Source: Microvirga zambiensis WSM3693 (GTDB taxonomy: Bacteria > Pseudomonadota > Alphaproteobacteria > Rhizobiales > Beijerinckiaceae). Taken from it: a DNA stretch of 64,000 nt. Shown in pieces: positions 4,593 to 24,432 of the stretch. A program made the translations under genes and the position numbers. The DNA is taken from the NCBI RefSeq assembly GCF_016735695.1, contig NZ_JAERQD010000013.1, positions 62,001 to 126,000 of the forward strand, read 5' to 3'. The stretch's first letter is position 1. Each line of letters begins with the position of its first letter. Under the pieces are notes generated by a model, which was not told the DNA's origin, searched no databases, and saw only the letters and a list, made by a program, of their open reading frames with translations.

Positions 4593-4613
4593 TGATGTAT
4601 GAGTAGTATATCA
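4593..4613 (-). promoter_or_regulatory. Island operator/promoter element, copy A
   Basis: On the minus strand the element reads TGATAT, then ACTACTCAT, then ACATCA, an imperfect inverted repeat with a nine-base centre. Its first 12 bases are identical to copy B. TATACT inside it could be a -10 box for the cupin gene, with TTGCGC 15 bases further upstream. It lies about 200 bases before that start codon. Confidence 0.5.
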
Positions 4614-4774
4614 CGGAATGAATTCGCGCAAGGTTTTTGCTGGAATATTCTCGGCGCCGCTCGGCTCGGCGGGCGCAGCGGCGCGAAAAAGCCCAGGAAG
4701 TACAAGCCTTAGGCAGGCGAGCTCACTTTTTGAGCGCGAACGCCGCAAATGCGGGCTTTCTAATAAAATTTCTC

Positions 4775-4795
4775 TGATATACTACTGAGATATCA
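4775..4795 (+). promoter_or_regulatory. Island operator/promoter element, copy B (best palindrome)
   Basis: TGATAT-ACTACTGAG-ATATCA is a perfect 6-base inverted repeat around nine bases. It ends one base before the ribosome site of the binding-protein gene that starts at 4812, and contains TATACT, a possible -10 box. A repressor bound here would cover both promoter and leader. It is the clearest copy of the element shared across the island. Confidence 0.6.
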
Positions 4796-4811
4796 TAAGG
4801 AGGGCTCGAAG

Positions 4812-5624
4812 ATGATCAAGGCTATCCTCGCTGCCGGAGCAGCGCTCGCTGCGCTGGCGCCATTCTCGGCAGGTGCACAGGACTTCAAGGCGAAACTCCT
4901 CAAGCCCGACACGATCGTGGTCGGCACGACGGGATCCGCCCCTCCCACCTCCATGATCGACGCGTCCGGCAAGCTCGCCGGCTACGATATCGCCGTCATG
5001 GAGAAGATTGCGGCGGACTTAGGCGTGAAGGTCGAGTTCGTGCAGCTCGACTGGGCCGGTCTCCTGCCGGGCCTCGCAGCCGGCCGCTTCGATGTCGTCG
5101 CCTCCGGCGTCACCCGGAGCGCGGAGCGCATCGCTTCCAAAGACTTCATCATGCTCTCGCCCTACATCGTCAACGGCGTGGCCGTCACGAAGCTGACGAG
5201 CAATGCGAAGATCGCCAGCTGGGACGATGTGTGCGGCAAGAAGATGGGCGTCATCCGCGGCTCCAACGAGCCGAAGCTCATTCAGCAGGCCGTGCCGGCC
5301 GGATGCGTTACGAATGTCGTCGAGTATCCTGGCTGGACCGAGCTGGCGCTCGACCTCAAGAACGGCCGCATCGACTGGATCGGCATGGATTATCTCGGGC
5401 CCTCCTATGCGGCGAGCAAGGACCGGAACATCACGGTGCTGCCCGAGGTGCGCATGCCGAAGACCCAGAGCATCGCCGTCTCCGCGGCCGATCCCGATCT
5501 GGCGAAGGCCATGGACGCTCTTATCGCCCGCTATCGCGAGGACGGGACCCTGAACGCGCTGGTCGAGAAATGGTTCGGCCAGAAGGTCGACTTCGCGAAG
5601 ATGCCTCCCGATCCGAAGTCCTGA
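4812..5624 (+). CDS. Polar-amino-acid-type ABC transporter substrate-binding protein (family 3), system 1
   Basis: A 270-residue periplasmic protein. Residues 1-22 form a signal peptide ending ALAPFSAGAQ. The mature part follows the SBP family 3 pattern: VVGTTGSAPPTSMIDASGKL, GYDIAVMEKIAADLGVKVEF, WAGLLPGLAAGRFDVVASGVT, and a C-terminal ARYREDGTLNALVEKWFG. Two Cys (in DVCGKK and AGCVTN) may form a disulfide. An AAGGAGGG ribosome site precedes the ATG and copy B of the operator overlaps the leader. It heads a unit with an AroM-like gene, an ATPase and two permeases. The ligand is probably an amino acid or a small cationic or cyclic derivative. Confidence 0.9.
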   Translation: MIKAILAAGAALAALAPFSAGAQDFKAKLLKPDTIVVGTTGSAPPTSMIDASGKLAGYDIAVMEKIAADLGVKVEFVQLDWAGLLPGLAAGRFDVVASGVTRSAERIASKDFIMLSPYIVNGVAVTKLTSNAKIASWDDVCGKKMGVIRGSNEPKLIQQAVPAGCVTNVVEYPGWTELALDLKNGRIDWIGMDYLGPSYAASKDRNITVLPEVRMPKTQSIAVSAADPDLAKAMDALIARYREDGTLNALVEKWFGQKVDFAKMPPDPKS

Positions 5625-5647
5625 TCGCCGTCCGACATTCAATGGCG

Positions 5648-5671
5648 GGCCGCCTTCAGGTTCAGGCGGCC
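5648..5671 (+). other. Intercistronic hairpin after the binding-protein gene
   Basis: GGCCGCCT (5648-5655) pairs with AGGCGGCC (5664-5671) around an 8-base loop. No T-run follows, so it is more likely an mRNA 3'-end stabiliser or partial attenuator than a full terminator. It sits between the binding-protein gene and the AroM-like gene. Confidence 0.5.
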
Positions 5672-5708
5672 TGCCTCGCTGTCAATCAAGAACGAAGAGT
5701 AGCATCCA

Positions 5709-6488
5709 ATGAAGAAGAAAGTGGGCATCATCACCACCGGGCAAAGCCCTCGCAATGAGTACCGGTCCTTTCATCGCAACGCGCTCGCGGCCTTGGGTCT
5801 CGAGGTCGATGTCTTCGAGCGCGCCTGCCTCGATGGGCTGAGCCGCGAAGAGATCCGCGCCCATGAGATCAAGCCGGAGGACGGCCTCGGGATTGGCTGC
5901 TATGTCCACAACGATACCCCGGCCGACCGCCGCATGGGCAGCGGCTGGGAGGAGATCTTCGTCGATCAGGCCTGGTACATCGAACGGGCTCAGGCCGCCA
6001 TCTCGGCCCATGAAGCCGACGGCATGGACATCATCCTCATGTGCTGCGCGGAGATGTATCCGCCGAACTCGTTCCGCTGCAGCGTGCCGCTTCTGTTGCC
6101 TTACCAGCTGATGTTCGATGTCGTTCGTCGCCAGGCGGAGGCCAAGGGCCGTTTCAAGCTCGCGCTGCTGCTCCCGACCGCCTGGCATATCGGCCAGGAT
6201 CGCGCCACCTGGGAATCCCAACCCTGGATGAAGGATGTCGAAGCATCGTTCGGCATCGGTATCGCTGACGGTCAGGCCGTCGAGCAGCTCAAGGCAGGCG
6301 CCCCATACGATCTTGCGCTCATCTGGGGATATGGCGACGGCCTCGCGCCTCATGACCCGGACGATCTGCTCGAAAGTATTTCCAAGGGACTTCAATGCCC
6401 GGTCATCACGCCGAATGTGCTGAACGTGTTCAATGCGCGCACCTTGCTGTCGCCAGCCTGGCCCGAGCGTATTCACGTGGAGCGCTGA
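5709..6488 (+). CDS. AroM-like protein, copy 1
   Basis: A 259-residue cytoplasmic protein. The opening KKVGIITTGQSPRNEY and the later GLSREEIRAHE resemble the AroM family (E. coli AroM has a similar opening and SREEV). That family is of unknown function and is related to the Asp/Glu-racemase fold. A Cys-containing strand (IILMCCAEMYPPNS, near residue 113) and GYGDGLAPHDP near residue 215 are shared with copy 2 at 14571, and the Cys could be catalytic. The gene is between the binding protein and the ATPase of transporter 1, three bases before the ATPase gene. A racemase- or decarboxylase-like step on the imported compound is an inference. Confidence 0.65.
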   Translation: MKKKVGIITTGQSPRNEYRSFHRNALAALGLEVDVFERACLDGLSREEIRAHEIKPEDGLGIGCYVHNDTPADRRMGSGWEEIFVDQAWYIERAQAAISAHEADGMDIILMCCAEMYPPNSFRCSVPLLLPYQLMFDVVRRQAEAKGRFKLALLLPTAWHIGQDRATWESQPWMKDVEASFGIGIADGQAVEQLKAGAPYDLALIWGYGDGLAPHDPDDLLESISKGLQCPVITPNVLNVFNARTLLSPAWPERIHVER

Positions 6489-6491
6489 TCC

Positions 6492-7277
6492 ATGACCATC
6501 GCGGCAGCAGAGAAGTCGCCGATTCTTGAAGTCCACGGAGTCGTCAAGCGCCTTGGCGGTGTCGATATTCTGAAGGGCATCAACTTCACTGTTGCCGAAG
6601 GAAGCGTCGTTGCGATCATCGGGGCATCGGGGTCGGGCAAAAGCACATTGCTGCGCTGCCTCAACATGCTGATCGTTCCCGATGACGGCGAGATCGTCTG
6701 GAAGGGACAGCGGGTCGGCTGGGTGCAGAAAGGAAGCACCTGGGTCAGGCAAAAGGAAAAGGAGCTTCTGGGATACCGGACTCAGGTCGGCATGGTGTTC
6801 CAGAGCTTCAACCTGTTCCCGCAGATGACGGCGCTGGAGAACATCATCGAAGCACCGATGACGGTTTTGGGGCGCAAGCGGAGCGAGATCGAGGAGGAGG
6901 CGCACGCCCTTCTTCGGAAGGTTCGCCTGTCTCACCGTGTCAAGGCCTATCCGCATCAGATGTCGGGCGGCGAGCAGCAGCGGGTGGCGATCGCGCGGGC
7001 TCTGGCCATGAAGCCGAAGGCCATGCTGTTCGACGAGGTCACCTCGGCTCTCGATCCGGAGCTGAAAGGGGAGGTTCTGACGGTGATGCGCGAGCTTGCC
7101 GCCGAGGGCATGACGATGATCCTCGTCAGCCACGAGATGGGTTTCGTCCGTCATGTGGCGGACGAGGTCCTGTTCATGCACCAGGGCATCGTGAAGGAGC
7201 GCGGCAATCCGTCGGATGTGCTCGTCAATCCGGCCAGCGCCGAGCTGCAGGCGTTCCTGCAACGCGTGACGGACTAG
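6492..7277 (+). CDS. Polar-amino-acid ABC transporter ATP-binding protein, system 1
   Basis: A 261-residue ABC ATPase with all motifs present: Walker [10 protein letters not shown] near residue 47, signature [15 protein letters not shown] near 157, Walker B AMLFDEVTSALDP near 177 and the switch His in LVSHEMGF. In Walker B the usual DEPTS is DEVTS, a Pro-to-Val change seen in some amino-acid transporter ATPases. A charged insertion after the Walker A region (about residues 75-95) is typical of the HisP/GlnQ type. It starts three bases after the AroM-like gene and is followed four bases later by the first permease, so translation is probably coupled. Confidence 0.93.
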   Translation: MTIAAAEKSPILEVHGVVKRLGGVDILKGINFTVAEGSVVAIIGASGSGKSTLLRCLNMLIVPDDGEIVWKGQRVGWVQKGSTWVRQKEKELLGYRTQVGMVFQSFNLFPQMTALENIIEAPMTVLGRKRSEIEEEAHALLRKVRLSHRVKAYPHQMSGGEQQRVAIARALAMKPKAMLFDEVTSALDPELKGEVLTVMRELAAEGMTMILVSHEMGFVRHVADEVLFMHQGIVKERGNPSDVLVNPASAELQAFLQRVTD

Positions 7278-7281
7278 GCTC

Positions 7282-7944
7282 ATGGACGTTTTCATCGCGC
7301 AGTTCCCTCGCTTCCTCGATGCGACATGGCTGACGATCTGGATGTTCGTGCTTGTCACCACGGTGTCGACCCTGATCGGCGCAACGTTGGCCGTGCTGGC
7401 CGAATGGGCCGGAAAGCCGGTATCCTTGCCGCTCAGCGTCTATAGCTGGGTGTTCAGAGGCCTGCCGGAACTCATCGTTCTGCTGGGGTGCTATCTGGCT
7501 CTTCCGGCCATCGGTCTCGATCTGGGTTCCGTCGGCTCGGCGATCCTCGGCTTCACGCTGGTCGGCATCGCGTTCCAGCTCGAGATCTTCCGCGCCGGGC
7601 TGAATGCGGTGGACAAGCGCATTCTGGAGGCCACGCGGGCGCTCGGAATGAGCTGGTGGCTCACCATGCGCCGTGTCGTGCTGCCCCAGGTGATCCGGAT
7701 CGCCATGCCGGCCTGGGCGACGTTCCTCGCCGGCAACGTCAAGATCTTTGCCGTCGCGTCCGCCGTCGCCGTGACGGAGGTCATGGCCGTGACCCGGCAG
7801 GCCATCGCGGTCTCTGATCAGCCGTTCTTTCTCATCATGGTCGCGGCGAGCATCTATGCGGCCATCGCCAGCATTCTGATGGTTCTCGAGGCCGTTCTCT
7901 CACGCCGCTTCTCGACCCGTTACGGACTTGGCTTGCGTCGCTAG
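7282..7944 (+). CDS. Polar-amino-acid ABC transporter permease, system 1a
   Basis: A 220-residue inner-membrane protein of the HisM/GlnP type with about five hydrophobic segments. The amino-acid-permease motif appears as FRAGLNAVDKRILEATRALGMSWWLTMRRVVLPQ (residues about 110-145), which includes the EAA coupling loop that contacts the ATPase. Unlike the other permeases here, the FRGLPELI motif lacks the more usual FRGTP. A palindromic repeat (7941-8036) begins within its last codon and separates it from the second permease. Confidence 0.9.
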   Translation: MDVFIAQFPRFLDATWLTIWMFVLVTTVSTLIGATLAVLAEWAGKPVSLPLSVYSWVFRGLPELIVLLGCYLALPAIGLDLGSVGSAILGFTLVGIAFQLEIFRAGLNAVDKRILEATRALGMSWWLTMRRVVLPQVIRIAMPAWATFLAGNVKIFAVASAVAVTEVMAVTRQAIAVSDQPFFLIMVAASIYAAIASILMVLEAVLSRRFSTRYGLGLRR

Positions 7945-8036
7945 AGCATTTTTCGGCGAAGTGGATCCGGTTCGCCGTAAAAAATGCGGCAAGCCAAAGA
8001 AGAGAGATGATTCCATGCAAGTGGAAACAGCTCTAG
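7941..8036. repeat. Palindromic intergenic repeat element
   Basis: A 96-base element bounded by CTAGAGC (7941-7947) and GCTCTAG (8030-8036). Inside it, GCATTTTTCGGCGAA (7946-7960) pairs almost perfectly with TTCGCCG-TA-AAAAATGC (7971-7987) around GTGGATCCGG. The second part (GATGATTCCATGCAAG...) resembles the usual right half of this family. From general knowledge, mosaic repeats opening AGAGCATTTTTCGGCGAAG are frequent between genes in Hyphomicrobiales. Here it lies inside a transporter operon, between two permease genes, so the transcript must carry its hairpins. Confidence 0.75.
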
Positions 8037-8051
8037 GACAGGGAGGTCGCT

Positions 8052-8702
8052 TTGGATTGGACTGTCGTTACAAGCAACGCGCCGCTCTTCGTTTCCGCGA
8101 CGCTCAACACGGTCGCCATAGCGGCGGCGACCATCGTCCTGTCGGTGGTCATCGCATTTCCGCTCGCCATCATGCGGGATTCGCGCTTCGGATTTCTGCG
8201 ATGGGTCTCCGCCGGCTACAGCTGGACCACGCGGGCGATGCCGACACTGTCGCTCCTGTTCCTGGCCTATTACGGCCTGCCGCAGTTCGGGATCTATCTC
8301 GATCCGGTGGTTGCGGCCATCACGGGGCTCACGGTGATCGCAGCCGGCTACAACATGGAATACATCCGGGTCGGCCTGCAGGCTGTTCCTGCCGGGCAAT
8401 ACGAGGCCTGCCGTGCACTCGGCATCCCGTTGTCGATCGCGCTGCGCCGTTTGATCGTGCCGCAGGCCATGCGCACGATCCTGCCGCCGCTCACGTCGAA
8501 CCTGACGCTCCTCCTGAAGGGAAGCGCTCTTGCGAGCCTCGTCGCGGTGACGGAGCTTTCCGGGCAGGCCATGGCACTCATCTCCTACACCTACAAGCCG
8601 ATCGAGATCCTGATCGCCGTCGCGCTGATCTATCTGTGCCTGAACGGCGTGCTCGTAGGAGTCCAACGGCTCGTCGAGCAGCGATACCGGCTACAGGACT
8701 AG
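8052..8702 (+). CDS. Polar-amino-acid ABC transporter permease, system 1b
   Basis: A 216-residue HisM/GlnP-type permease with about five membrane segments. The start is a TTG at 8052, chosen because GGGAGGT is four bases upstream and no in-frame ATG fits. The FRGTP-equivalent is TTRAMPTLSLLFLAYYGLPQ, and the EAA loop is YEACRALGIPLSIALRRLIVPQ (about residues 117-138). It presumably forms a heterodimer with the permease at 7282. A gap of 166 bases with its own promoter-like element follows before the next binding-protein gene. Confidence 0.9.
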   Translation: MDWTVVTSNAPLFVSATLNTVAIAAATIVLSVVIAFPLAIMRDSRFGFLRWVSAGYSWTTRAMPTLSLLFLAYYGLPQFGIYLDPVVAAITGLTVIAAGYNMEYIRVGLQAVPAGQYEACRALGIPLSIALRRLIVPQAMRTILPPLTSNLTLLLKGSALASLVAVTELSGQAMALISYTYKPIEILIAVALIYLCLNGVLVGVQRLVEQRYRLQD

Positions 8703-8762
8703 ACGTTCCACGAACGATATCCCAACGCACATTGTAACCGCCTTGTTGCGCAATGTCCGTGC

Positions 8763-8783
8763 TGATATCTTACGAGAATACTA
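8763..8783 (+). promoter_or_regulatory. Island operator/promoter element, copy C
   Basis: TGATAT-CTTACGAGA-ATACTA. A good promoter overlaps it: TTGTTG at 8743-8748, a 17-base spacer and TATCTT at 8766-8771. It is about 85 bases before the start of the binding-protein gene at 8869, so the second transporter can be transcribed on its own. Confidence 0.55.
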
Positions 8784-8868
8784 GTTCTGATCGAGAGGTA
8801 CCGGGTTCTACGGCGACGGCAAGTGAGACGATGTTTCGTTGGTAGAAGGCAACAACAGGGGAGCACAC

Positions 8869-9735
8869 ATGAAAAAGATTGCTGCAGTGGCGGTCGGGAT
8901 GATGCTGACGGTTCTCGCGACCGCCGGAGTACAGGCACAAAGCACGCTGAAGGTCCCCAGTGGTGCTCTTCTCACCGACGGCACATTGGCCCTTGCCGCC
9001 GATTTCGCAGCGGCTCCCAATCAGTTCATCAAGACGGATGGCGAGAAGGATGGCCTGAACGTCGACATGTGCGGCGAGGTTGCGAAACGCCTCAATGTGA
9101 AGCTCGAATGGACGAACCTTTCCTTTCCCGGCCTCGTACCGGGCCTGCAAGCCCAACGTTTCGATGGTCTCTGCACGGCGATCTTCATCAATCCCGACCG
9201 CCTCAAGATCATGAACATGGTCCCTTATGTGCAGTGGGGCGAGGGGCTGATGGTTCCGAAGAGTTCATCCCTTGGATCGAGCTGTTCCTTCAAGGCGGCG
9301 GACAAGGCGAGCTATGCCGGCTGCTTCGATGATCTGGCGGGCAAGGCCGTCTCCGTGGCGGCTGCCGGAACCACCAACAAGAACCTTCAGACCGAAAGCG
9401 ACCGCATGAAGGCGGCGGGCAAGGCTCCGATTGAAATTCGGGCATTCGACACGAATGCGGATGCGATCCAAGCCGTCGTATCGGGGCAGACCGCCGCAGC
9501 ATACCTGAACGATCCGCAAGCCGCCTTCTTCATCAACCGGACGAACGACAACTTCAAGCTCGCCTTTACCGGCTATGCCTCGAACCAGCTTGCGCTCACG
9601 ACGATGAAGCCGAACACGGCGCTGGCCGATGCCTTCGTCGCTGCGCTGGAGCAGATGAAAGCCGACGGGTCCTACGACGCCATTCTCAAGAAGTGGGGCG
9701 TCGCGTCCGTTCCGTCCTTCGCCTACGCAAAGTAA
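8869..9735 (+). CDS. ABC transporter substrate-binding protein (family 3), system 2
   Basis: A 288-residue periplasmic protein. The ATG at 8869 follows a GGGGAG site and gives a clean signal peptide (MKKIAAVAVGMMLTVLATAG...VQAQ). Family-3 features are GLNVDMCGEVAKRLNVKLEW and FPGLVPGLQAQRFDGLCTAIF, and the C-terminal MKADGSYDAILKKWG. The mature protein has four Cys (in DMCGE, GLCTA, SSCSF and GCFDD), which suggests two disulfides; most relatives have none or two. It heads the unit with a permease (9797), a reductase (10543) and a permease-ATPase fusion (11677). Confidence 0.9.
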   Translation: MKKIAAVAVGMMLTVLATAGVQAQSTLKVPSGALLTDGTLALAADFAAAPNQFIKTDGEKDGLNVDMCGEVAKRLNVKLEWTNLSFPGLVPGLQAQRFDGLCTAIFINPDRLKIMNMVPYVQWGEGLMVPKSSSLGSSCSFKAADKASYAGCFDDLAGKAVSVAAAGTTNKNLQTESDRMKAAGKAPIEIRAFDTNADAIQAVVSGQTAAAYLNDPQAAFFINRTNDNFKLAFTGYASNQLALTTMKPNTALADAFVAALEQMKADGSYDAILKKWGVASVPSFAYAK

Positions 9736-9757
9736 CGCAACCGCCATAGGAACCGAC

Positions 9758-9782
9758 AGCCGAAGCTCGCCGGGCTTCGGCT
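9758..9782 (+). other. Intercistronic hairpin after the second binding-protein gene
   Basis: AGCCGAAGC (9758-9766) pairs with GCTTCGGCT (9774-9782) around a 7-base loop. There is no T-run. Its place, just after the binding-protein stop and before the permease, fits a structure that keeps the binding-protein mRNA more abundant. Confidence 0.5.
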
Positions 9783-9796
9783 GATCCGAGCAAGCG

Positions 9797-10546
9797 ATGA
9801 CCTGGGACTTCGATACGTTTTTCACATATCTCTTCGATTCCCGCATGGCTTGGGCCGCGCTGGTCACCTTCTGCGTCGCAGCGGTGGCGCAGCTTCTCGC
9901 GACGGTCGTCGGATTCGTGCTCGCTCTCGGGTTGCGCTCCCGCAGCAACCTTCTGCGCGCACCTGCCGTGGCGTATGTCTGGTTCTTTCGCGGCACGCCT
10001 CCTCTGATCCAGCTGCTTCTTATCTATTTCGGGCTGCCGCAGCTCGGCATACGCGTGACGGTGCTGGAGGCGGGCATCTCGAGCTTGAGCCTCTACGGCG
10101 CGGCCTACATGGCCGAGATCATCCGCGGTGCGCTCGCATCCCTCGATCCCGGCCAGGAGGAGGCCGCCCGAAGCATCGGCCTGTCGCGGTTCGAAACCAT
10201 GCGCAGCATTCTCGCGCCGCAGGCTGCACGTCTGGTCCTGCCGGCGTTTGGAAACGAATTCACCAGCATGATGCGCACGACGTCGCTTCTGTCGGTCATA
10301 TCGTTCCAGGAATTGTTGCGGGTTACCACGCTCGCCATCAGCGAAACATTCCGGCCCTTCGAGCTCTACTCGGTCGCGGCCGTCTATTACCTTCTGATGG
10401 CCACCCTATGGATGGTCGTTCAGGATTGGCTCGAGCGAAAGTTCGGCGTTGGCATGGCGAGCGCGCCGGTTCGCCGACCGATCTGGAGCGACATCAAGCG
10501 CCTCATTCGATTTCCTCGCCCGTTCTCAAGAAAGATCACCACATGA
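9797..10546 (+). CDS. Polar-amino-acid ABC transporter permease, system 2a
   Basis: A 249-residue HisM-type permease. It contains FFRGTPPLIQLLLIYFGLPQ (about residue 65) and the coupling loop LDPGQEEAARSIGLSRFETMRSILAPQAARLVLP. The C-terminal tail after the last membrane segment is longer than usual and basic (about 30 residues). Its stop overlaps the start of the reductase gene by four bases (ATGA at 10543). Its partner permease is the N-terminal half of the fusion at 11677. Confidence 0.9.
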   Translation: MTWDFDTFFTYLFDSRMAWAALVTFCVAAVAQLLATVVGFVLALGLRSRSNLLRAPAVAYVWFFRGTPPLIQLLLIYFGLPQLGIRVTVLEAGISSLSLYGAAYMAEIIRGALASLDPGQEEAARSIGLSRFETMRSILAPQAARLVLPAFGNEFTSMMRTTSLLSVISFQELLRVTTLAISETFRPFELYSVAAVYYLLMATLWMVVQDWLERKFGVGMASAPVRRPIWSDIKRLIRFPRPFSRKITT

Positions 10547-11667
10547 CGCATTCACCGGCGGAACCAACTCGGGTCATCCTCTTTGGTCTGGGGGCTCTTG
10601 GCGGCCTCGTCATCGATTGCCTCAAGACGGGCTATCCGTTGATCCGCATCGTCGGTGCGGTCGATCATGCTCCCAATCGGGCCGGGCGCCGAATGGGCGA
10701 CATCTATGACGGACTTGGAGAGGCGTCCGATGTCGTCGTCGCCGCAACGCTGCGGGAGTGTCTGGATGGGCTCGATGCGCCGGCGCATCTTCTCTACCAT
10801 ATGACGGAATCGACGCCGTCCCATATCGAAAGTCAGCTGATCGAAGCCCTCGAGGCAGGGCTTCATGTCATCTCGGCTTCCGAGGCGATGTTTCATCCCG
10901 CCCTCCGGTACCCGGACTTCTCCCTACGCCTCGATGCGGCGGCGCGTGCGAGAGATGTGTCCATCACGGGCGTCGGAATCAATCCGGGCTTCAGCTTCGA
11001 CAGCCTTCCCCTGCTGCTGGGGCGGGTGACGTCGGGCGTGAAGCGGGTCACCATCTCGCGGACCATCGACGTGACGGGAACAGGGCCCGGCGATATCGAT
11101 CATGTCGGATACGGCCTGTGGCCAAAGGAATTCGACGAGAAGATCGCGTCGGGCCGCATCGTCGGCCATATGGGGATGCCCGAGTCGATTGCGGCCATTG
11201 CCGAGCGGCTGAACATCGACGTCGACCGGGTCGAGGAACGCTGGACGACAACCACGGCGGACTTCCCCGTGGATTCCGGCGATGCAACCCTCGGCGTGCT
11301 GGAGCCCGGCCGCGTCATCGGCATCAGCCAGGAGGGCATGGGCGTGAGGGGAGATGAAACCGTCATCTCCATGAGCCTCGTCATGTTCTATCAGCCGGAG
11401 CTGCATGGCCTGGAAGTGGCCGATGTCATCGACATCGAAGGCGCCCACCATGTCAAGGCGAGCCTCAAGCCTGCCGCCTTGTCCCTGTTCGGCGCGGCCA
11501 ACACCATCGTCAATGCGACCCATGACCTGCTCGATGCCGCGCCCGGACTGGTGAATATTCTCGATTTCTCTATCGCCGGCGTTCGTCGCGGAGGTTTCCA
11601 CTATGCGGTTGATCCGAAGCATCCGCCCCGTCCCGGGCAGGTGCGTCTCGTCCCCGTTCCCCACTAG
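10543..11667 (+). CDS. Dehydrogenase related to 2,4-diaminopentanoate dehydrogenase
   Basis: A 374-residue protein. The N-terminal Rossmann motif VILFGLGALGGLVIDCL (residue 9 on) resembles dihydrodipicolinate-reductase-like enzymes. GVGINPGFSFDSLPLLLGRVTSGVKRVTISRTIDVTG (about residues 142-178) matches the conserved region of 2,4-diaminopentanoate dehydrogenase, an NAD(P)-dependent amine dehydrogenase of ornithine breakdown. The partner aminomutases of that pathway are absent, so the substrate here is probably a different amine or imine. The gene is translationally coupled to the permease before it and nine bases from the fusion gene after it, so it is an enzyme embedded in a transporter operon. 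Confidence 0.7.
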   Translation: MTHSPAEPTRVILFGLGALGGLVIDCLKTGYPLIRIVGAVDHAPNRAGRRMGDIYDGLGEASDVVVAATLRECLDGLDAPAHLLYHMTESTPSHIESQLIEALEAGLHVISASEAMFHPALRYPDFSLRLDAAARARDVSITGVGINPGFSFDSLPLLLGRVTSGVKRVTISRTIDVTGTGPGDIDHVGYGLWPKEFDEKIASGRIVGHMGMPESIAAIAERLNIDVDRVEERWTTTTADFPVDSGDATLGVLEPGRVIGISQEGMGVRGDETVISMSLVMFYQPELHGLEVADVIDIEGAHHVKASLKPAALSLFGAANTIVNATHDLLDAAPGLVNILDFSIAGVRRGGFHYAVDPKHPPRPGQVRLVPVPH

Positions 11668-11676
11668 GGATGTTCC

Positions 11677-13292: not shown

Positions 13293-13313
13293 TAGGATAT
13301 CGGTAATATATCA
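13293..13313 (-). promoter_or_regulatory. Island operator/promoter element, copy D
   Basis: On the minus strand it reads TGATAT-ATTACCGAT-ATCCTA. On the plus strand it lies between a TTGACG (13283-13288) and TATATC (13307-13312), a possible promoter with an 18-base spacer for the oxidase gene at 13338. Its orientation is opposite to the gene, which argues for an operator rather than a simple -10 box. Confidence 0.5.
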
Positions 13314-13337
13314 GAAGAATAGCCAGGATCATTCGCC

Positions 13338-16243: not shown

Positions 16244-16246
16244 CAT

Positions 16247-17368: not shown

Positions 17369-17615
17369 CGGGGGCAAGCTGCTTGGCCTGTTGTGCGTCG
17401 ACAGCAGCTTCCTTCCTGGAGAGGATAGGCGGGATTTGTTTCGCTATCATCGGGGCTTAAGGCATGTCGCATTAGCTCCAGAGGCGGTCGGATCCACCCT
17501 TGGAATATAGTTTGTGTTACTAAGTTAGATATATTAGAGGTGATCCTTTCTTCGGCTTTGCCGCAAGATTGTAACAGAGATCTCGAGAACAAGACCCGCA
17601 TTGAGGGGTGATGAC

Positions 17616-18362
17616 ATGGAAACGCCGACGAGGGCGAGCCTGCGCAAAATGAGCATTCCGGCGAAAGCGGCCGCAAAGGCGAAGAGCGTGCGCGGAAAGG
17701 CATCCTCCCTGACGGAGAAGGTCTACCAACTCCTACGCGCGCAGATCCTGTCCGGCGAGTTGGAGCCGGGGCGCGAACTGTCGGAGGCCGAACTGGCTGA
17801 ACAGTTCGGCGTCAGCAAGACCCCCGTGCGCGAGGCTCTCGCCACCCTCCGGTCGGAAGGTTTCGTGAGGACGTTCCCCCGGCGCGGTTATCAGGTCGTG
17901 CCGATCACGTTCGGCGATGTGGCCGAGCTGTTCGAGGTGCGCGCGATGCTGGAGGCCGGCGCTGCGGAGCTCGCCTGCGCCCGCATCACCGATGAGGAAC
18001 TGGACCAGCTCGATCGTCTCGCGGACGTGGCATACGACCGCTATGAGCAGCCGAGTCTCAAGCGTTTCATCCAGGCCAACCGCGACTTCCACGTCGCCAT
18101 CGCCCGCGCATCGGGCAACGAGCGCCTCTATCAGCTTTCCGTTCGCCAGATCGATGAACTCGAGCGCATCTTCTATCTTGGTGCGCGTCTGCGCGACATC
18201 AGCGGCGAGACCAAGGACGATCACCACGAGATCGTCAGGGTGCTGAGGTCGCGCGATCCCGTTGCCGCGCGGGCGATCATGATCCGCCACAACGACATGA
18301 CCCGCCAGAACCTGTTCCAGGTGCTCGCAGCATCCCGCAAGGCCAGCCAGATCAGCCTCTGA
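17616..18362 (+). CDS. GntR-family regulator with FCD domain, likely island regulator
   Basis: A 248-residue protein. The ATG at 17616 has GAGGGG at a good distance. A basic N-terminal tail (about residues 1-30) precedes a winged helix with EKVYQLLRAQILSGELEPG, LSEAELAEQFGVSKTPVREALATL and VRTFPRRGYQVVPI. Residues 105-235 form an FCD ligand domain with the metal-site residues seen in R-x-x-x-E (FEVRAMLEAGAA), DFHVAIARASGN and KDDHHEIVRVLRSRD. It is central to the island and is the best candidate to bind the shared TGATAT-type elements. Whether it acts as a repressor is inferred. Confidence 0.88.
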   Translation: METPTRASLRKMSIPAKAAAKAKSVRGKASSLTEKVYQLLRAQILSGELEPGRELSEAELAEQFGVSKTPVREALATLRSEGFVRTFPRRGYQVVPITFGDVAELFEVRAMLEAGAAELACARITDEELDQLDRLADVAYDRYEQPSLKRFIQANRDFHVAIARASGNERLYQLSVRQIDELERIFYLGARLRDISGETKDDHHEIVRVLRSRDPVAARAIMIRHNDMTRQNLFQVLAASRKASQISL

Positions 18363-18628: not shown

Positions 18629-18660
18629 TGATATTTCTGAATTATCTTACAGACGATCTT
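18629..18660 (+). promoter_or_regulatory. Probable promoter with island element, copy F (weaker)
   Basis: TGATATTTC (18629-18637) is followed by AATTAT-CTTACAGAC-GATCTT (18640-18660), which keeps the CTTAC core of copies C and G. TTGTAG (18610-18615) and TATTTC (18632-18637), 16 bases apart, form a possible promoter for the gene at 18709. The outer half-sites match the consensus poorly. Confidence 0.35.
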
Positions 18661-18708: not shown

Positions 18709-19830
18709 ATGGCGATTGCTCAGGTCAGCATGGACGTCCGCGCCTGCTTCTCACCCGACTACAAAACGGCGCGAAGCCGCTTTCTCGACAAGGCGACTTC
18801 CGCCGGCGGCGTGATCCGGTCTTACGACAATCCGAACAAGGGGCCCTCCGGCGAGGATCTCGCAACCGATGTTGCCTGGTTCGGCCCGCGCGACGCGCGA
18901 AATGTTCTGGTGCTGGTGTCGTCGACGCATGGCGTTGAAGGATTCTGCGGGTCCGGAGCGCAGCTCGACTGGCTTGCGACGAACGGACCTGAAACCCTTC
19001 CTTCAGGGCTTGCGGTGATGATCGTTCATGCCATCAATCCGCATGGCTTCGCCTGGCTCCGGCGCACCACGGAAGAAGGCGTCGATCTCAACCGCAATTG
19101 CATCTCGTTCGACGGTTCGTTGCCCGCCAATGAAGGCTATGACGAACTCGCTTCGGCCTTCGTGCCAAAGGCGCTCGACGAGACGACGCTTGCAGAGGCA
19201 AAGGCACGGCGCGAAGCCTATCGCGAAAAGCACGGACGCGTCGCATTCGAGCAGGCGCGCAGCTCTGGGCAATACACGCATCCCGAGGGGATTTTCTTCG
19301 GCGGAACAGGGCCTACCTGGTCGCTGAAGACGCTTGAACAAATCTGCGCCGATTACGACCTGTCATCGCGCAAGGGCGTTGCCGTCATCGATTATCACAC
19401 TGGGCTTGGCTCCCACGGCTACGGCGAGCCGATCTGCGGCCATCGCCCGGGAGAATCGGGTCAGGCGCGCTGCCGTGCCTGGTATGGCCATTCTCTGGGC
19501 GAGCCTCTGCTCGGCAAGTCGTCATCGCTTCCGATCGCCGGGCTGACGCAATATGCATGGGCCCGCTGCGTTGGCGGTGACAAGCTCACCTTCATCGCTC
19601 TTGAATTCGGAACCTACGACGCGGAGATCGGCGCCGACGCGCTTCGCGACGATCACTGGCTGCATGCTTACGGAACGGTCGACTGGACCAGCGAGGAGAC
19701 GCAGCGCATCAAGACCAATCTCCGCCGCTTCTACCATCCTGGCACTCAAGATTGGTGTGAGCTCGTTCTCTTCAGAAGCCGCCAAGTCATCTCACAGGCC
19801 GTCACGGGCCTTTGCTCAACGTCGTCATAA
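18709..19830 (+). CDS. M14-type zinc hydrolase (DUF2817 family)
   Basis: A 373-residue protein without a signal peptide. It has the zinc-carboxypeptidase ligand pattern: H-x-x-E in SSTHGVEGFCGS (about residue 74), a further His in VIDYHTGLGSHG (about residue 227) and a Glu in FIALEFGTYD (about residue 300). DUF2817 proteins belong to the M14 carboxypeptidase/deacylase clan, which includes succinylglutamate desuccinylase and aspartoacylase. Upstream of a racemase and a hydantoinase-like gene, it could remove the acyl or carbamoyl part left after ring opening. That role is an inference. Confidence 0.75.
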   Translation: MAIAQVSMDVRACFSPDYKTARSRFLDKATSAGGVIRSYDNPNKGPSGEDLATDVAWFGPRDARNVLVLVSSTHGVEGFCGSGAQLDWLATNGPETLPSGLAVMIVHAINPHGFAWLRRTTEEGVDLNRNCISFDGSLPANEGYDELASAFVPKALDETTLAEAKARREAYREKHGRVAFEQARSSGQYTHPEGIFFGGTGPTWSLKTLEQICADYDLSSRKGVAVIDYHTGLGSHGYGEPICGHRPGESGQARCRAWYGHSLGEPLLGKSSSLPIAGLTQYAWARCVGGDKLTFIALEFGTYDAEIGADALRDDHWLHAYGTVDWTSEETQRIKTNLRRFYHPGTQDWCELVLFRSRQVISQAVTGLCSTSS

Positions 19831-19840
19831 AAGGCCCGCC

Positions 19841-20503
19841 ATGAAACGCATTCTCGTTCTCAACCCCAACAGCTCGGCTAACATCACGGAATCCATGGAC
19901 AGGGCGCTCGACGTGCTGCGCCTGCCCGGAAATCCTGAGATCGTGACCGCAACCTTGAGCGAAGGCCCTCCTGGAATCGAGACGCAGGCGCATGTGGAGG
20001 GTGTCGTGATCCCCACAGCACGTTACTTCGCCGAGAACCCGGCCGATGCCTATGTGATCGGATGCTTCTCCGATCCGGGTCTTCATCTCGCGCGTGAAAC
20101 GGTGAAGAAGCCGGTTCTCGGCATCGCCGAATCCGCGTTTCTTACGGCGCTCGGCCTCGGCCACCGCTTCGGCATCGTCGCGATCAAAAAAGGCTCGATC
20201 GGTCGGCATATGCGCAATGTACGTCAGCTTGGCCTGGAATCGCGCCTTGCAGGCGACCGCCCGCTGGATATCGGCGTGACCGATGTGCTCGGCGACAATG
20301 CCGTGATCGAGCGCATCGTCGAGGTCGGCACGCAGTTGCGCGATATCGATGGAGCCGATGTGCTCATCCTGGGCTGCGCCAGCATGGGCGGCTTCCGGGC
20401 GGAGATCGAAGACAGGCTCGGCCTGCCTGTCGTCGATCCGACGCAGGCCGCCGTCATGCGTGCCATCTCTCTCGTAACACTCGGCTATGCGAGGGCCGCC
20501 TGA
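19841..20503 (+). CDS. Asp/Glu/hydantoin racemase family protein
   Basis: A 220-residue protein starting MKRILVLNPNSSANITESMD, the typical opening of hydantoin racemases (HyuE-like). Both catalytic Cys are in place: VIGCFSDPGLHLAR near residue 75 and LILGCASMGG near residue 177. The ATG at 19841 is chosen over longer frames since the family motif begins at once. Its stop overlaps the next start by one base (TGATG at 20501-20505), so racemase and amidohydrolase are made together. This pairing is characteristic of hydantoin-type pathways. Confidence 0.85.
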   Translation: MKRILVLNPNSSANITESMDRALDVLRLPGNPEIVTATLSEGPPGIETQAHVEGVVIPTARYFAENPADAYVIGCFSDPGLHLARETVKKPVLGIAESAFLTALGLGHRFGIVAIKKGSIGRHMRNVRQLGLESRLAGDRPLDIGVTDVLGDNAVIERIVEVGTQLRDIDGADVLILGCASMGGFRAEIEDRLGLPVVDPTQAAVMRAISLVTLGYARAA

Positions 20504-21879
20504 TGAACGACACACCACGCTACGATCTCGTCGTTCGCGGCACTCTCGTTCTGCCGACGGAGACGCTGCCAAATGGCTGGATCGCCGTCTCCGGCGGAAC
20601 GATCATGGCAATCGGGTCAGGACCAAATCCTTCGGCGGATACGGTGCATGACGCCGGCAGCGCCTACGTGCTCCCCGGCTTCATCGATGGGCAGACACAC
20701 GCGACAAGCTACAAAGGCTTGGCGGGTTTCGAGGCAACAAGCCGTTCGGCCATCGCAGGTGGCATCACCACCATGGTCGACATGCCTTACGACAACCCGG
20801 ATCCGCTCAACACCATGGAGCGGCTCCAGCTCAAGATCGATTCCGTCGAAAACCTGTCCTATTGCGATGTCGCGCTCTACGCCACAATCGCGCCGGGGCA
20901 GGGCACGGCGGAAATGGCGGATCTCGCCAAGGCCGGCGTTGCAGCCTTCAAGATCTCCAGCTTCGAGAGCCATCCTGTTCGCTTCCCGAGACTGCCGGCG
21001 AGCGATACCCTGGCGATCCTCGAAGCCTCGGTCGAAACCGGACTTCCCGTCGGCCTGCACAACGAGGACCAGGAGATCGTGCGCGCCTCCATCGCTGCCC
21101 TGAAGGCGGATGGCAAGATCACGCCGGAATGGCATGAGCCCAGCCGTCCGCTCTCCGCCGAGATGACAGCCACGGCAGCCTTCCTGGAACTGGGGGCCGC
21201 CACAGGCGCTCATGTTCATATCGTCCATATTTCGGCGCCGCGCGGCTATGATCTCGTGTCCCGCTATCGTGCCGAGGGCGTCAACGCCACGGCCGAGATG
21301 TGCGTGCACTATCTGCACTTCGATGCCGCGCGCGATATTGAACGCCTCGGCGCGCGCATGAAGGTCAGCCCTCCCATCCGCGCCGGCATGATCGAGGGTC
21401 TGTGGGCTGCCCTCGAAAAGGGACAGATCGACTTCATCTCGTCCGATCATTCGAGCTGGCCGATCGACAACAAGTTCACGCCTTCGATCTTCGATGCCGG
21501 CGCCGGCATTCCGGGTCTCGAGACGATGGCGCCGTCTCTCTATACCGATCTCATCGGTCGCGTCGCCGATCCGGTCCGGACGGTTGCCGATTATCTCTCG
21601 ACGAAGCCTGCCGCGTTCTTCGGATTGAGCGCGCGAAAAGGCGCGCTGAAGATCGGGGCGGATGCCGACTTCGCCATTCTCGAAACCGGAGACTATCCCT
21701 TCGATGCCTCTCAAACCCGTGACGGCTTGAACTGGAGTCCCTATGACGGGGAAACCTTCAAGGTCCGGATCGCCGCGACGTTCCTGCGCGGCAAGCCGGT
21801 CTGGGATGGCACGGAGATTACAGGCAAAAGCGGATACGGCCAGTATCTCCCGCGCCCGCAATCGTCCAAGGCGGCGTGA
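20503..21879 (+). CDS. Hydantoinase/allantoinase-like cyclic amidohydrolase with altered metal site
   Basis: A 458-residue cyclic amidohydrolase. Family motifs: PGFIDGQTH (D62-G63-Q64-T65-H66), GGITTMVDMPYDNPDP near residue 86, the bridging Lys K150 in AAFKISSFE, GLHNED near 185, HVHIVHISAP near 237 and FISSDHSSW near 325. The first metal ligand of the usual HxH is Gln here (codon CAG), while the second His and the other ligands are kept. The enzyme may therefore use one metal or a different ring substrate. It overlaps the racemase gene and is overlapped by the following oxidase gene, so the three form one coupled set. Confidence 0.85.
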   Translation: MNDTPRYDLVVRGTLVLPTETLPNGWIAVSGGTIMAIGSGPNPSADTVHDAGSAYVLPGFIDGQTHATSYKGLAGFEATSRSAIAGGITTMVDMPYDNPDPLNTMERLQLKIDSVENLSYCDVALYATIAPGQGTAEMADLAKAGVAAFKISSFESHPVRFPRLPASDTLAILEASVETGLPVGLHNEDQEIVRASIAALKADGKITPEWHEPSRPLSAEMTATAAFLELGAATGAHVHIVHISAPRGYDLVSRYRAEGVNATAEMCVHYLHFDAARDIERLGARMKVSPPIRAGMIEGLWAALEKGQIDFISSDHSSWPIDNKFTPSIFDAGAGIPGLETMAPSLYTDLIGRVADPVRTVADYLSTKPAAFFGLSARKGALKIGADADFAILETGDYPFDASQTRDGLNWSPYDGETFKVRIAATFLRGKPVWDGTEITGKSGYGQYLPRPQSSKAA

Positions 21880-23180
21880 GCATGGCGACGGAAACCTTCG
21901 CACAATCCCTCTGGTCGTCGCTGTCGAGGCCGCTTGAGGGATATGAGGAGCTGACGGAGAGCATCGAAGCCGACGTGCTCATCGTCGGTGCAGGTTTCCT
22001 CGGGCTGTCGACGGCGCTGCACCTTGCTGAAGCCGGCACCCGCGTGGCCCTGGTGGAGGCCGACGAAGCAGGGTTTGGCGCCTCGGGGCGCAATACCGGC
22101 TTCGTCGTGCCGAGCCTCAAGACGGCCTTCGGGCCGGCGGATGTGGCGCGGCATCTCGGCCAGGATAAGGGCGAGCGTCTCATCTCATTGGTCGGTCAAT
22201 CCGGCAACATCGTCTTCGACCTGATCCGCCGCCTCGGCATCGAATGCAGTGCGGAGCAGGTCGGATGGATGCAGCCCGCTCATACCGCATCGATCGCCAA
22301 AGTCCTGGAGAAGCGCCAGGCCGATTGGCGCGAACGCGGACGTTCCGTGGAAATCCTCTCGGCGGAGGAAACCGGGCGCCGTATCGGTTACAAGGGCTAT
22401 CATTCTGCGCTGCTCGACCCGACCGGCGGTCAGATCAATCCGTTGGCCTATGCTCGCGGGTTGGCCGATGCATGCAGGAAGGCCGGGGTCGCGCTCTATT
22501 TTCGATCCCGTGTAACGGAATTGTCGAAAGCGGGAGCGAAATGGCTTGCCCGCACTCCCAACGGCTCGGTGGCTGCCGAGCGCGTATTGCTGACGACCAA
22601 TGCGCTGATCGGGAAACTGCAGCCGGAGCTGTTTGCCAGCATCATACCCGTGCGTGTCCATCAGATAGCGACCCAGCAATTCGACGAGACGATTCAGGGC
22701 ACGTTTCTCATTGGGCGATCGCCGGTAGCCGACACGCGGCGGCATACCTTCGCCGTTCGCTGGTCGCCAGATGGGCGTCTGGTCACCGGCGGGCTCGTGA
22801 TGCCGGGACCGGCGCCGCTCGAGCGGGCATCGCGCTTCTTTGCGAAACGCCTGGAGCGCTTCTTCCCGGCGTTGGCGCCGATCAAGGCGGAGTACGTCTG
22901 GAACGGCGTCATCGCGGCGACGACGGATTCGCTGCCGCGCTTTCTCTCTCTTTCACCGGGTCTCGACGCGGCAATCGGATGCAATGGCCGGGGTGTCGCC
23001 CTGACGACGTCGCTCGGACGAGACATCGCCGGACTCTACAACGGCAGGCTGGACGCTTCGGATTTCCCGCTCGCGCATGAGCCACCGCGTGGTGTTCCCG
23101 TGCGTGCCCTGGCGGAGCACGGGCCGTCTCTGTGGCTGCCCTGGAGTACGTTCCGCGATTGGCAGGACGCCAGGCGATAA
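21876..23180 (+). CDS. FAD-dependent oxidoreductase (DAO family), copy 2
   Basis: A 434-residue flavoprotein. DVLIVGAGFLGLSTALHLAEAG near residue 33 binds FAD, ASGRNTGFVVP near residue 70 is the second DAO motif, and AAIGCNGRGVALTTSLGRDIAG near residue 367 closes the fold. This set resembles gamma-glutamylputrescine oxidase (PuuB) and related amine oxidases. The GTG at 21876 overlaps the previous TGA; an ATG at 21882 is an equally possible start. It should take the amino acid or amine released by the upstream hydrolases. Confidence 0.83.
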   Translation: MSMATETFAQSLWSSLSRPLEGYEELTESIEADVLIVGAGFLGLSTALHLAEAGTRVALVEADEAGFGASGRNTGFVVPSLKTAFGPADVARHLGQDKGERLISLVGQSGNIVFDLIRRLGIECSAEQVGWMQPAHTASIAKVLEKRQADWRERGRSVEILSAEETGRRIGYKGYHSALLDPTGGQINPLAYARGLADACRKAGVALYFRSRVTELSKAGAKWLARTPNGSVAAERVLLTTNALIGKLQPELFASIIPVRVHQIATQQFDETIQGTFLIGRSPVADTRRHTFAVRWSPDGRLVTGGLVMPGPAPLERASRFFAKRLERFFPALAPIKAEYVWNGVIAATTDSLPRFLSLSPGLDAAIGCNGRGVALTTSLGRDIAGLYNGRLDASDFPLAHEPPRGVPVRALAEHGPSLWLPWSTFRDWQDARR

Positions 23181-23207
23181 CCGGGTCCCTTCGACCGCGC
23201 CAAGGGC

Positions 23208-23239
23208 GGCCAGCTCCTGCATGTCAGGAGCTGGCCTTT
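23208..23239 (+). terminator. Terminator between convergent genes
   Basis: GGCCAGCTCCTG (23208-23219) pairs perfectly with CAGGAGCTGGCC (23225-23236) around a 5-base loop and is followed by TTTC. It lies between the oxidase gene and the leftward DapA-family gene and could end transcription from the left. Confidence 0.75.
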
Positions 23240-23242
23240 CAC

Positions 23243-24196
23243 TTATCTGATCTGGGCAAGTCGCCGCTCGAGGCGCGTCATCAGGACGGTCAGTTCGGCC
23301 TGGTCGATGGCATCGAGTTTGGGGCCGGGAGCGCGAACATGCGCGGAGGCGATGGCACCGCGACGTTTCAAGATTTCCTTCCTTACGGCGAGGCCGAGTC
23401 CGGGCTGCGTTTCGTGGCGGATCAGCGGAAGATAGGCGTCGAAAATGTCCTCTGCGCCGTCCTTGTCGCCAGCCTCGTGCCGCTTGCAGACGTCAACGAG
23501 CATTTCGGGATATGCGAAACCCGTCATGGCGCCGTCTGCCCCGCGGGTGAGTTCCTGCGGCAGGAAGAGGCCGCCATTGCCGACCAGGATGCTCAGGCGT
23601 CGCGAACCGCGCTCACTCTGGTTCCTGCGCAGACGGGATAGCTTCGACAGGCCGGGCCAGTCCTCATGCTTCAGCATGACAACCTGCGGCAGTTCCGTAG
23701 CGATCTGCTCGATCGTCGCCACCGACAGATAGACGTTCAGGGAGAGGGGAAAGTCTTGCAGGACGACGGGAACGTCCGGACCGAGAGCCTGACAAACGCT
23801 GCGGAAATACCCGATGATCTGCTCTTCGGTCTTCAGGCTCGGCATGGGCGCCACCATCACACCGGCAGCGCCGGCCTCCATGGCGTCGTGGGCGAGATGA
23901 ACGAGGTTCGAAAGGCCGGCGCTGCTGACGCCGACAACCACGGGAACACGGCCTGAGACGCGCTGCAGAACCGTGGTCAGGAAGCGATGGCTTTCCTCGG
24001 ACGAGAGCTTCGGTGCCTCGCCCATCATGCCGAGCAGCGTCAATCCGCTCGCACCGCGTTCCAGGTAGAAGTCCGTGAGCCGTTCCGCGCTGGCGAGATC
24101 CAGTTCGCCGCTGTCGGAGAACGGAGTGGCTGAGATGACGAAGACACCTTTGGCTGTCTCGTCGAGCCTGGTCGGTGCTCCTGTTACGCTCATCAT
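23243..24196 (-). CDS. Dihydrodipicolinate-synthase/N-acetylneuraminate-lyase family protein
   Basis: A 317-residue DapA-family protein, a class I aldolase-type lyase or dehydratase. The Schiff-base Lys is in VVMLKHEDWPGL near residue 173, the GMMGEAPKLS loop near residue 55 replaces the usual GTTGE, and GNGGLFLPQELTRGADGAMTGF near residue 210 is the family's glycine-rich region. AAAGGA lies before two adjacent ATG codons (24196 and 24193), and either may be used. It is the only gene of the central island on the minus strand and shares its control region with the gene at 24491. It may cleave a 2-oxo acid made by the oxidases (inference). Confidence 0.85.
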   Translation of the reverse strand: MMSVTGAPTRLDETAKGVFVISATPFSDSGELDLASAERLTDFYLERGASGLTLLGMMGEAPKLSSEESHRFLTTVLQRVSGRVPVVVGVSSAGLSNLVHLAHDAMEAGAAGVMVAPMPSLKTEEQIIGYFRSVCQALGPDVPVVLQDFPLSLNVYLSVATIEQIATELPQVVMLKHEDWPGLSKLSRLRRNQSERGSRRLSILVGNGGLFLPQELTRGADGAMTGFAYPEMLVDVCKRHEAGDKDGAEDIFDAYLPLIRHETQPGLGLAVRKEILKRRGAIASAHVRAPGPKLDAIDQAELTVLMTRLERRLAQIR

Positions 24197-24230
24197 GTGG
24201 TCCTTTCGCGAAATGATTTCAGTCGCGTAA

Positions 24231-24251
24231 TGCCATGCTGCAGATATATCA
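24231..24251 (-). promoter_or_regulatory. Possible half-operator for the DapA-family gene
   Basis: On the minus strand it begins TGATATATC, like the left half of the island element, but the right half does not match. It is within a very AT-rich stretch (24241-24275) just upstream of the leftward gene, so chance is possible. Confidence 0.25.
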
Positions 24252-24411
24252 ATAAATATTTCAATCATACAAAATCGATCCGCTCAGGCGCTGGCATGCT
24301 CTTTGCAGAGAGACGGGAACGCATGAGAGCCGCGGGCAAAGAAAGGGCTCAATTTTTGAGCAATGTGCTGCGGGCGGAGACGCGAACTTGTGCAGTCCGG
24401 TCCTTGCTCCC

Positions 24412-24432
24412 TGGAACGCTTGTAAGATATCA
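24412..24432 (-). promoter_or_regulatory. Island operator/promoter element, copy G
   Basis: On the minus strand it reads TGATAT-CTTACAAGC-GTTCCA; its first 12 bases equal those of copy C. On the plus strand it overlaps the -35 box of a very good promoter: TTGTAA (24420-24425), 17 bases, TAAAAT (24443-24448). That promoter drives the gene at 24491 and probably the third transporter. Confidence 0.55.

Follow-up and report, generated by a model that had tools for sequence, protein, structure and literature searches.

The 64,000-nucleotide stretch of Microvirga zambiensis WSM3693 analysed here (contig NZ_JAERQD010000013.1, positions 62,001 to 126,000; hereafter the window) contains an island of transport and catabolic genes in which a short AT-rich element recurs upstream of successive transcription units. 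This raises the question of whether the element is the operator of a single regulon and which protein reads it. A first-pass annotation had listed five such elements over about 20 kb and had proposed as their binder the GntR/FCD protein encoded at 17616-18362 (+ strand). Our results confirm the repeated element, which occurs well above chance expectation, and they make it very likely that its copies are operators of the 17616 protein.

The five elements are indeed found at 4593-4613, 4775-4795, 8763-8783, 13293-13313 and 24412-24432. The form first given to them, TGATAT-N9-(ATATCA-like), holds in part: the exact TGATAT-N9-ATATCA is seen at 4775-4795 alone, the 4593 element has one mismatch and the 8763 element two, and the 13293 and 24412 elements have one good arm each, a better dyad lying 11 bp to the right. 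With one fitting site, the strict pattern was rejected as the motif. The conserved centre noticed at the same time (C/T-T-A-C) is on the contrary borne out, all five elements sharing the exact 11-bp arm TGATATNYTAC on either strand. In the whole genome (7,364,131 bases), this arm occurs 8 times, versus once for the reversed-pattern control, and five of the copies lie in the island, so that the lack of enrichment over unrelated intergenic regions, which would have spoken against a regulon, is not what is observed. Two other copies are on contig C198 (38030 and 40766), one on each side of the gene for the closest paralogue of the 17616 protein (53% identity). The last one (L002:8117; G000:C184:55106) is on contig C184, within the first part of a 179-aa open reading frame that neighbours a LysR-type regulator gene; no dyad of at least 16 bits is found at this arm, which is probably background.

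The sites themselves having supplied the pattern, the arm count is in part circular. A matrix was therefore derived de novo from seven other genomes, the window being left out. When 397 genomes of the order were searched for an orthologue of the GntR gene, matches at E 1e-62 or better were obtained in 8, namely the own genome and seven others, one of these with two copies, which gives eight order-level loci outside the window. Orthologous genes were mapped in the flanks of these loci, and unseeded expectation-maximisation was applied to 39 upstream regions of the seven other genomes. The top motif is a 22-bp dyad, TGATATATtAcnAgnaATATcA, the same as the window element, with a log-likelihood of 201.2 (33 unique, non-overlapping regions) versus 84.1-95.8 in six dinucleotide shuffles. 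When the window is scanned with this 22-bp spacing only, the dyad at 24242-24263 reaches 31.0 bits (best of 60 simulations, 19.9) and the sites of the first-pass annotation at most 12.8. As the 22-bp-only matrix catches 24242 and underscores the 21-bp sites of the window, it was abandoned for a scan with both 21- and 22-bp spacing, which were also given to the 60 Markov-2 simulations. Seven dyads of at least 16 bits are then found in the window versus 0.27 expected, the next-best scoring 14.4, and six of the seven score higher than any simulated dyad (best, 20.0). A matrix scan had been proposed as a check, and in the one made here these seven dyads rank above everything else in the window. 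Their density, 7 in about 20 kb, is also well above a background measured in real DNA, where 80 distant loci contain 81 sites of at least 16 bits in 1450 kb, or 1.1 per 20 kb; these control loci come from a scan giving relatives of at most 45% identity in the best segment (most 30-36%), from which near genomes may be missing. A sequence-only covariance model run on the whole genome gave 2 matches at E up to 10, which is too weak for a genome-wide list. Symmetry was tested in four sites, which have 18, 20, 14 and 16 self-complementary positions out of 22. The exact arm is a stricter form of the motif, present in 14 of the 49 listed sites.

The seven strong dyads of the window and a weaker one, designated O1 to O8, each stand upstream of a different unit. 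In the divergent region 5' of the cupin gene, O1 (4593-4613, 21 bp, 23.6 bits) has its centre 196 bp from the likely start at 4407, and O2 (4775-4795, 21 bp, 27.8 bits) is centred 27 bp 5' of the start of the solute-binding protein gene SBP3a, adjoining the ribosome-binding site. O3 (8763-8783, 21 bp, 21.7 bits) precedes the second solute-binding protein gene, SBP3b, at 96 bp from its start. O4 (13304-13324, 21 bp, 22.2 bits), which is the 13293-13313 element moved by 11, is centred 24 bp 5' of the FAD oxidase gene DAO1, and O8 (24423-24443, 21 bp, 22.1 bits), the 24412-24432 element moved likewise by 11, is centred 58 bp 5' of a TctC-like gene. A weak sixth site had been suspected at 18640-18660; there is a site there, but the better dyad is in another register, O6 (18629-18649, 21 bp, 19.7 bits, just below the best simulated value), centred 70 bp 5' of a DUF2817 gene. 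The initial list of sites was not complete either, the best dyad of the window, O7 (24242-24263, 22 bp, 30.5 bits), having been overlooked. It is centred 56 bp 5' of the likely start of a gene of the dihydrodipicolinate synthase (DHDPS) family (24196, - strand), whose longest open reading frame reads through it (24197-24268), and could for this reason be masked by automatic annotation. The distance from strong site to start codon thus ranges from 24 to 196 bp and is 24-96 bp for six of the seven, the starts of the cupin, SBP3b and DHDPS genes being chosen by judgement. Finally, O5 (17527-17548, + strand), centred 78 bp 5' of the GntR/FCD gene, is a possible weak operator; its score, 11.7 bits (12.9 in another scan), is within noise, and the argument for it is one of position only, as other clade loci also have sites 5' of GntR.

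Operators are paired in two divergent intergenic regions, with centres 182 bp (4593-4795) and 180.5 bp (24242-24443) apart. DNA looping between O1 and O2 or between O7 and O8 (181-182 bp) is not claimed, the spacing not being kept in relatives (113 bp in L142). In four paralogue loci of the same genus (L006, L008, L009 and L010), three arms are arranged in a row 5' of GntR, two direct ones 12 bp apart and then an inverted one, making two overlapping dyads; a similar step is seen at 18629-18660 of the window.

The 17616 protein belongs to the GntR family, FadR (FCD) subfamily. A Pfam scan from the 17601 start identifies a GntR winged-helix domain (PF00392, 2.8e-21, 75.4 bits vs a cutoff of 27) and an FCD effector domain (PF07729, 5.7e-27, 95.0 bits vs a cutoff of 24.3), and the predicted structure (predicted local distance difference test 84, predicted template modelling score 0.77) matches the FCD structures 7u5q, 7xp1 and 6za3, the latter being the Atu1419-DNA complex. 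Four residues, N155, H159, H203 and H225, are invariant in the 15 aligned members of its clade and may correspond to the metal/carboxylate-binding ligand residues of FCD domains. The recognition helix reads SKTPVREAL and includes Lys68, which is present in 15/15 aligned clade members and 9/9 readable held-out members, that is 24/24, versus an Arg at the equivalent position in 24/24 distant homologues aligned (24 of 80). The typical recognition-helix Arg, which contacts guanine, is thus not present in the clade, where Lys is found instead. In the own genome, 20 distinct other homologues were aligned; Lys is found at this position in none of them and Arg in 13, so that Arg is not universal. The clade is found in Hyphomicrobiales and on three plasmids of two other orders.

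Several results tie the operator to this clade. Among the 24 homologues of the own genome found at E 1e-8, strong sites adjoin only the two with the SKTPVREAL helix, and over the 78.7 kb of the loci of the other 22, two of which overlap (L135 and L136), a single site is found. No DNA-binding domain but GntR is found among the scanned proteins from 2.9 to 30.7 kb of the window. A second comparison is anchored on DHDPS, which matched in 131 of the 397 genomes, 30 returned loci being examined. Where DHDPS has its own promoter and the regulator is present, a site is found in 5/5 loci (18.9-32.4 bits); it is absent from 22/23 DHDPS promoters in genomes where no clade member was found, and from two loci of regulator-bearing genomes with DHDPS inside an operon. 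Genomes counted as regulator-free show nothing above 35% identity at E 1e-30 (five genomes) or nothing at E 1e-38 (18 genomes, searched without a positive control; the same query gives matches in other searches). Exact arms were also counted: in 12 homologue-bearing genomes, 9/17 lie at the GntR locus (reversed control, 10), and in 11 hand-chosen homologue-free genomes there are 17 versus 19 for the reversed control.

Plasmid loci held out of the training give a similar picture. A tblastn search with the regulator matched 17 plasmid records, and 10 loci were taken from the 15 listed, leaving out H2 and H7, which look like duplicates of H1 and H6, H10, which is the already used G020, as well as H14 and H15. 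These loci contain 23 sites of at least 16 bits versus 2.53 expected, and six of them have a site 68-125 bp 5' of GntR. In one of the ten, L178 on plasmid pNgVX of Neorhizobium galegae, the regulator gene is frame-broken and in two pieces (13950-14659), without an upstream site of at least 16 bits, and one site is located directly 5' of the racemase gene. In the own genome, in the DHDPS control and in the held-out loci, the sites thus appear to track the SKTPVREAL clade, which favours the 17616 protein as binder, as first proposed.

The sites are furthermore conserved at orthologous promoters. In order-level relatives, whose loci, unlike the window sites, trained the matrix, the island genes recur in shuffled order, and all seven strong window sites have a counterpart 5' of the orthologous gene elsewhere. 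Counterparts are found 22 and 25 bp upstream of SBP3a (27 in the window) and 31 and 33 bp upstream of DAO1 (24) in L025 and L026, and 70 bp upstream of the DUF2817 gene in both L020 and L022, exactly as in the window (70). For SBP3b, the distance is 33 bp in L034 and 25 bp in the held-out Martelella locus (L177:5840), compared with 96 bp in the window. Those of DHDPS are at 53-99 bp in L020, L022, L024 and L027 (56), those of TctC at 31-77 bp in L024, L027 and L032 (58), and those of the cupin gene at 249 bp in L030 and, by judged start, just upstream in L020 and L022. The regulator gene itself has a site 32-202 bp upstream in 8/8 order-level loci, which are the training set. The arrangement expected of a local autoregulated regulon, with the same putative operator at the regulator promoter and at neighbouring transport and catabolic units, is seen in 8/8 order-level and 6/10 held-out loci, and weakly in the window. 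As the same dyad precedes orthologous genes in relatives and in held-out loci, the idea of one regulon put forward initially appears well founded on comparative grounds.

Under the mechanism that we propose, a dimer of the GntR/FCD protein, or a dimer of dimers, would bind the AT-rich 21-22 bp dyad, whose arms resemble TGATATNYTAC, in the promoter regions of seven units, those of cupin/ornithine cyclodeaminase, SBP3a, SBP3b, DAO1, DUF2817, DHDPS and TctC, and probably also, weakly, at its own promoter. By analogy with the repressor Atu1419, the bound regulator would block transcription by covering the promoter or the early transcribed region, and could be released when an acidic metabolite of the pathway binds to the FCD domain, a mode of release that is usual for the FCD family. 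The regulator would then probably be a metabolite-released repressor, mainly repression being suggested because, of the seven strong sites, six are at 24-96 bp from the start codon that follows.

Other explanations of the element have to be weighed against this one. Its core, TGATATNYT, fits TGnTATnnT, the extended -10 consensus, six of the seven strong sites are less than 100 bp from start codons, and three of the six sigma-70-like matches of the region touch or adjoin O2, O3 and O8, so that the element could be a mere extended -10 box shared by similar promoters, without any operator. These sigma-70-like matches are nevertheless near chance overall (6 found vs 4.1 expected), and their overlap with O2, O3 and O8 is also what is expected of an operator over a promoter. 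Moreover, when 16 non-redundant exact arms of clade loci are considered (5 from the window, L008 and L009 nearly alike; the control loci contained only one), the second arm agrees with ATATCA at an average of 4.25 of 6 positions versus 1.82 at random, and at 4 or more of 6 in 11/16 versus 4.1% at random, without any enrichment of a -35 hexamer (2.44 vs 2.25 random). The exact arm is also rare genome-wide and clustered at GntR loci, and at DAO1 it points away from the gene. A simple promoter box is thus scarcely plausible, and the initial preference for an operator is supported by the arrangement of the arms. It is also very unlikely, but slightly less so, that the sites are operators of another regulator, to which the 17616 protein would be unrelated. 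The C198 paralogue is 53% identical, has the same SKTPVREAL helix and, because the same motif is present at its own locus, could cross-bind the window sites; a second GntR/FCD regulator is also encoded in the window itself (37895-38665, + strand, 33% identical to the first). The latter has an Arg at the key position of its recognition helix (L133), and no strong operator copy is found near its gene. In the order-level relatives, the promoter of the 17616 orthologue carries the motif (the loci being found through that gene), AroM copies 84-88% identical occur in two other genomes only, both with a 17616 orthologue, and in the DHDPS-anchored search the promoter sites are found where the regulator is present.

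If the 17616 protein does bind the sites, it could still mainly activate, or the sign of control could depend on site position. The distance between site and start differs from unit to unit (24 to 196 bp), and O1 is far 5' of the cupin gene; the positions at six of the seven units (24-96 bp) nevertheless suit occlusion, and the nearest structural relatives include the characterised repressor Atu1419. Activation is therefore the less likely sign, although less clearly so than the two previous explanations are unlikely, and it must be said that repression is preferred to activation on site position only. Other points weigh against repression by the 17616 protein at these operators, or against the strength of the motif itself. 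The promoter of the regulator gene holds in the window only the weak O5. Four of the ten held-out loci have no site of at least 16 bits near GntR (L178, L183, L184 and L186), L183 having no site at all and L184 and L186 having sites elsewhere in the locus, and only 11/23 held-out sites stand 350 bp or less 5' of a gene start that could be mapped from the window. The DHDPS promoter of L153 scores 17.9 bits, with a second dyad at 16.9, in a genome (G426) without regulator match at E 1e-30; the G426 assembly is 87% complete. Exact arms are lacking in 4/12 homologue-bearing genomes, and in a fifth (G020) the sole arm lies elsewhere. A few matrix matches fall inside coding sequence (L021:3138, L023:3324, L033:5073 and L032:18436), and not every match is therefore an operator. 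Training regions of G381 and of G272 are in part near-identical; this inflates the real log-likelihood somewhat, and the shuffles make no correction for it. The 21-bp spacing was introduced once the 22-bp matrix had given low scores to the sites annotated initially. Lastly, it is from computational results, namely co-occurrence with the GntR clade, site conservation and non-randomness, that we infer binding of the dyads by the 17616 protein.

The genes behind these sites give some indications on the function of the island. On the - strand, the cupin/ectoine-synthase-like gene (4030-4521, likely true start near 4407), which scores below the Pfam cutoff and is conserved in the cluster, is followed on its 3' side by a gene of the ornithine cyclodeaminase/mu-crystallin family (2895-3881), not seen in the clusters of relatives. 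The unit behind O2 (4812-8737, + strand) encodes SBP3a, an AroM-like protein, an ATP-binding cassette (ABC) ATPase, a permease and a product without Pfam match (7928-8737), in an order conserved in L025 and L026. According to domain scans, SBP3b, a permease, a dehydrogenase with a DAP_DH_C domain (10549-11667) and a permease/ATPase are encoded behind O3 (8839-13188, + strand). O4 is followed by DAO1 and genes for AroM-like, creatininase-family and saccharopine-dehydrogenase/epimerase-like proteins (13338-17368, + strand), the same run of product names being found in the Martelella locus. Domain scans also place behind O6 (18709-23180, + strand) the DUF2817 gene, an Asp/Glu/hydantoin racemase, a hydantoinase-like amidohydrolase and a second FAD oxidase, DAO2. 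Behind O7 is the DHDPS-family gene (23243-24196, - strand), identified by domain scan and DHDPS search, and behind O8 (24491-30727, + strand) are a TctC-like receptor, an ABC transporter with SBP3c and a GMC oxidoreductase, conserved in L024 and L027.

With its amino-acid-type and TctC-type uptake genes, two FAD oxidases and two AroM-like proteins, the island most likely takes up and degrades a nitrogenous compound via the hydantoinase-like amidohydrolase, the racemase and the FAD oxidases, our confidence as to the substrate being low. A nitrogenous substrate, which could be of the hydantoin type, is likely although unproven, and literature searches for it returned no usable description. The named model closest to the amidohydrolase is ErtD of the ergothioneine pathway, to which it was not assigned because its score, 491 bits, falls under the cutoff of 600. 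The C198 regulon (L001, G000:C198:31000-48000) has operator sites at 7019, 9756 and 10771 of its locus and comprises the GntR paralogue, ErtD-like amidohydrolases, a racemase, a PatB-type C-S lyase, a 3-mercaptopyruvate sulfurtransferase-like gene and a dipeptide/glutathione-type ABC transporter. These last three make a sulfur-containing substrate likely for C198, and cross-talk of this regulon with the window island is possible.

For a catabolic island that was uncharacterised, these results draw the limits of a regulon, with eight sites open to testing and one candidate regulator. They link a regulator clade to an operator lying outside the published family consensus, and this shared operator lets regulon members be found in other genomes. 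The change from Arg to Lys makes it possible, in addition, to test directly by what means GntR proteins acquire another specificity.

Local GntR/FCD regulons as such are of an ordinary kind. Atu1419 (VanR) of Agrobacterium fabrum is a GntR/FCD repressor of its own and neighbouring catabolic genes through promoter palindromes, and its tetramer can loop two palindromes 190 bp apart (PMC7797058; PDB 6za3). The window protein has the same domain architecture and 28-29% identity to it in the fold match. The Atu1419 operator is the 10-bp ATGTATACAT, read by Arg45 (PMC7797058), whereas the window dyad has 21-22 bp and another sequence, and the aligned residue is Lys. The FadR-subfamily regulators FadR, LldR, GlcC and UxuR (PMC4494728) likewise combine a GntR winged helix and an FCD domain, control local catabolic regulons and bind palindromic operators, with the consensus TKGT-N2/3-ACMA; Arg45 of FadR, like that of Atu1419, is the guanine-contacting residue of the recognition helix (PMC4494728, PMC7797058). 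That TKGT-N2/3-ACMA is found in 0/49 listed sites, and GT-N2/3-AC in 3/49, adds to the points counted above against our interpretation. This mismatch lowers the resemblance and not the membership, because the subfamily has known exceptions, among them NanR, which binds TGGTATAW direct repeats, and BioR, which binds TTATMKATAA (PMC4494728), both unlike TGATATNYTAC.

Literature searches covering open-licence papers did not find the operator in print; of 12 papers containing the core strings, none deals with a bacterial regulon to judge by its title. The same operator, together with the same SKTPVREAL helix, is present in the C198 regulon and at similar loci on Rhizobium, Allorhizobium and Neorhizobium plasmids, whose records carry no annotation of the genes there. 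One tentative possibility, which we advance with less than even confidence, is that the clade reads a long AT-rich dyad (TGATATAYTAC.GTARTATATCA, hand-written) via its Lys-bearing helix and not via an Arg-guanine contact, and that the island and C198 regulons cross-talk, which would couple two pathways with a hydantoinase-like amidohydrolase and a racemase. The C198 regulon is indeed linked, like the window island, to amidohydrolase and racemase genes; unlike the island, it also includes the PatB-type C-S lyase, the 3-mercaptopyruvate sulfurtransferase-like gene and the dipeptide/glutathione-type ABC transporter.

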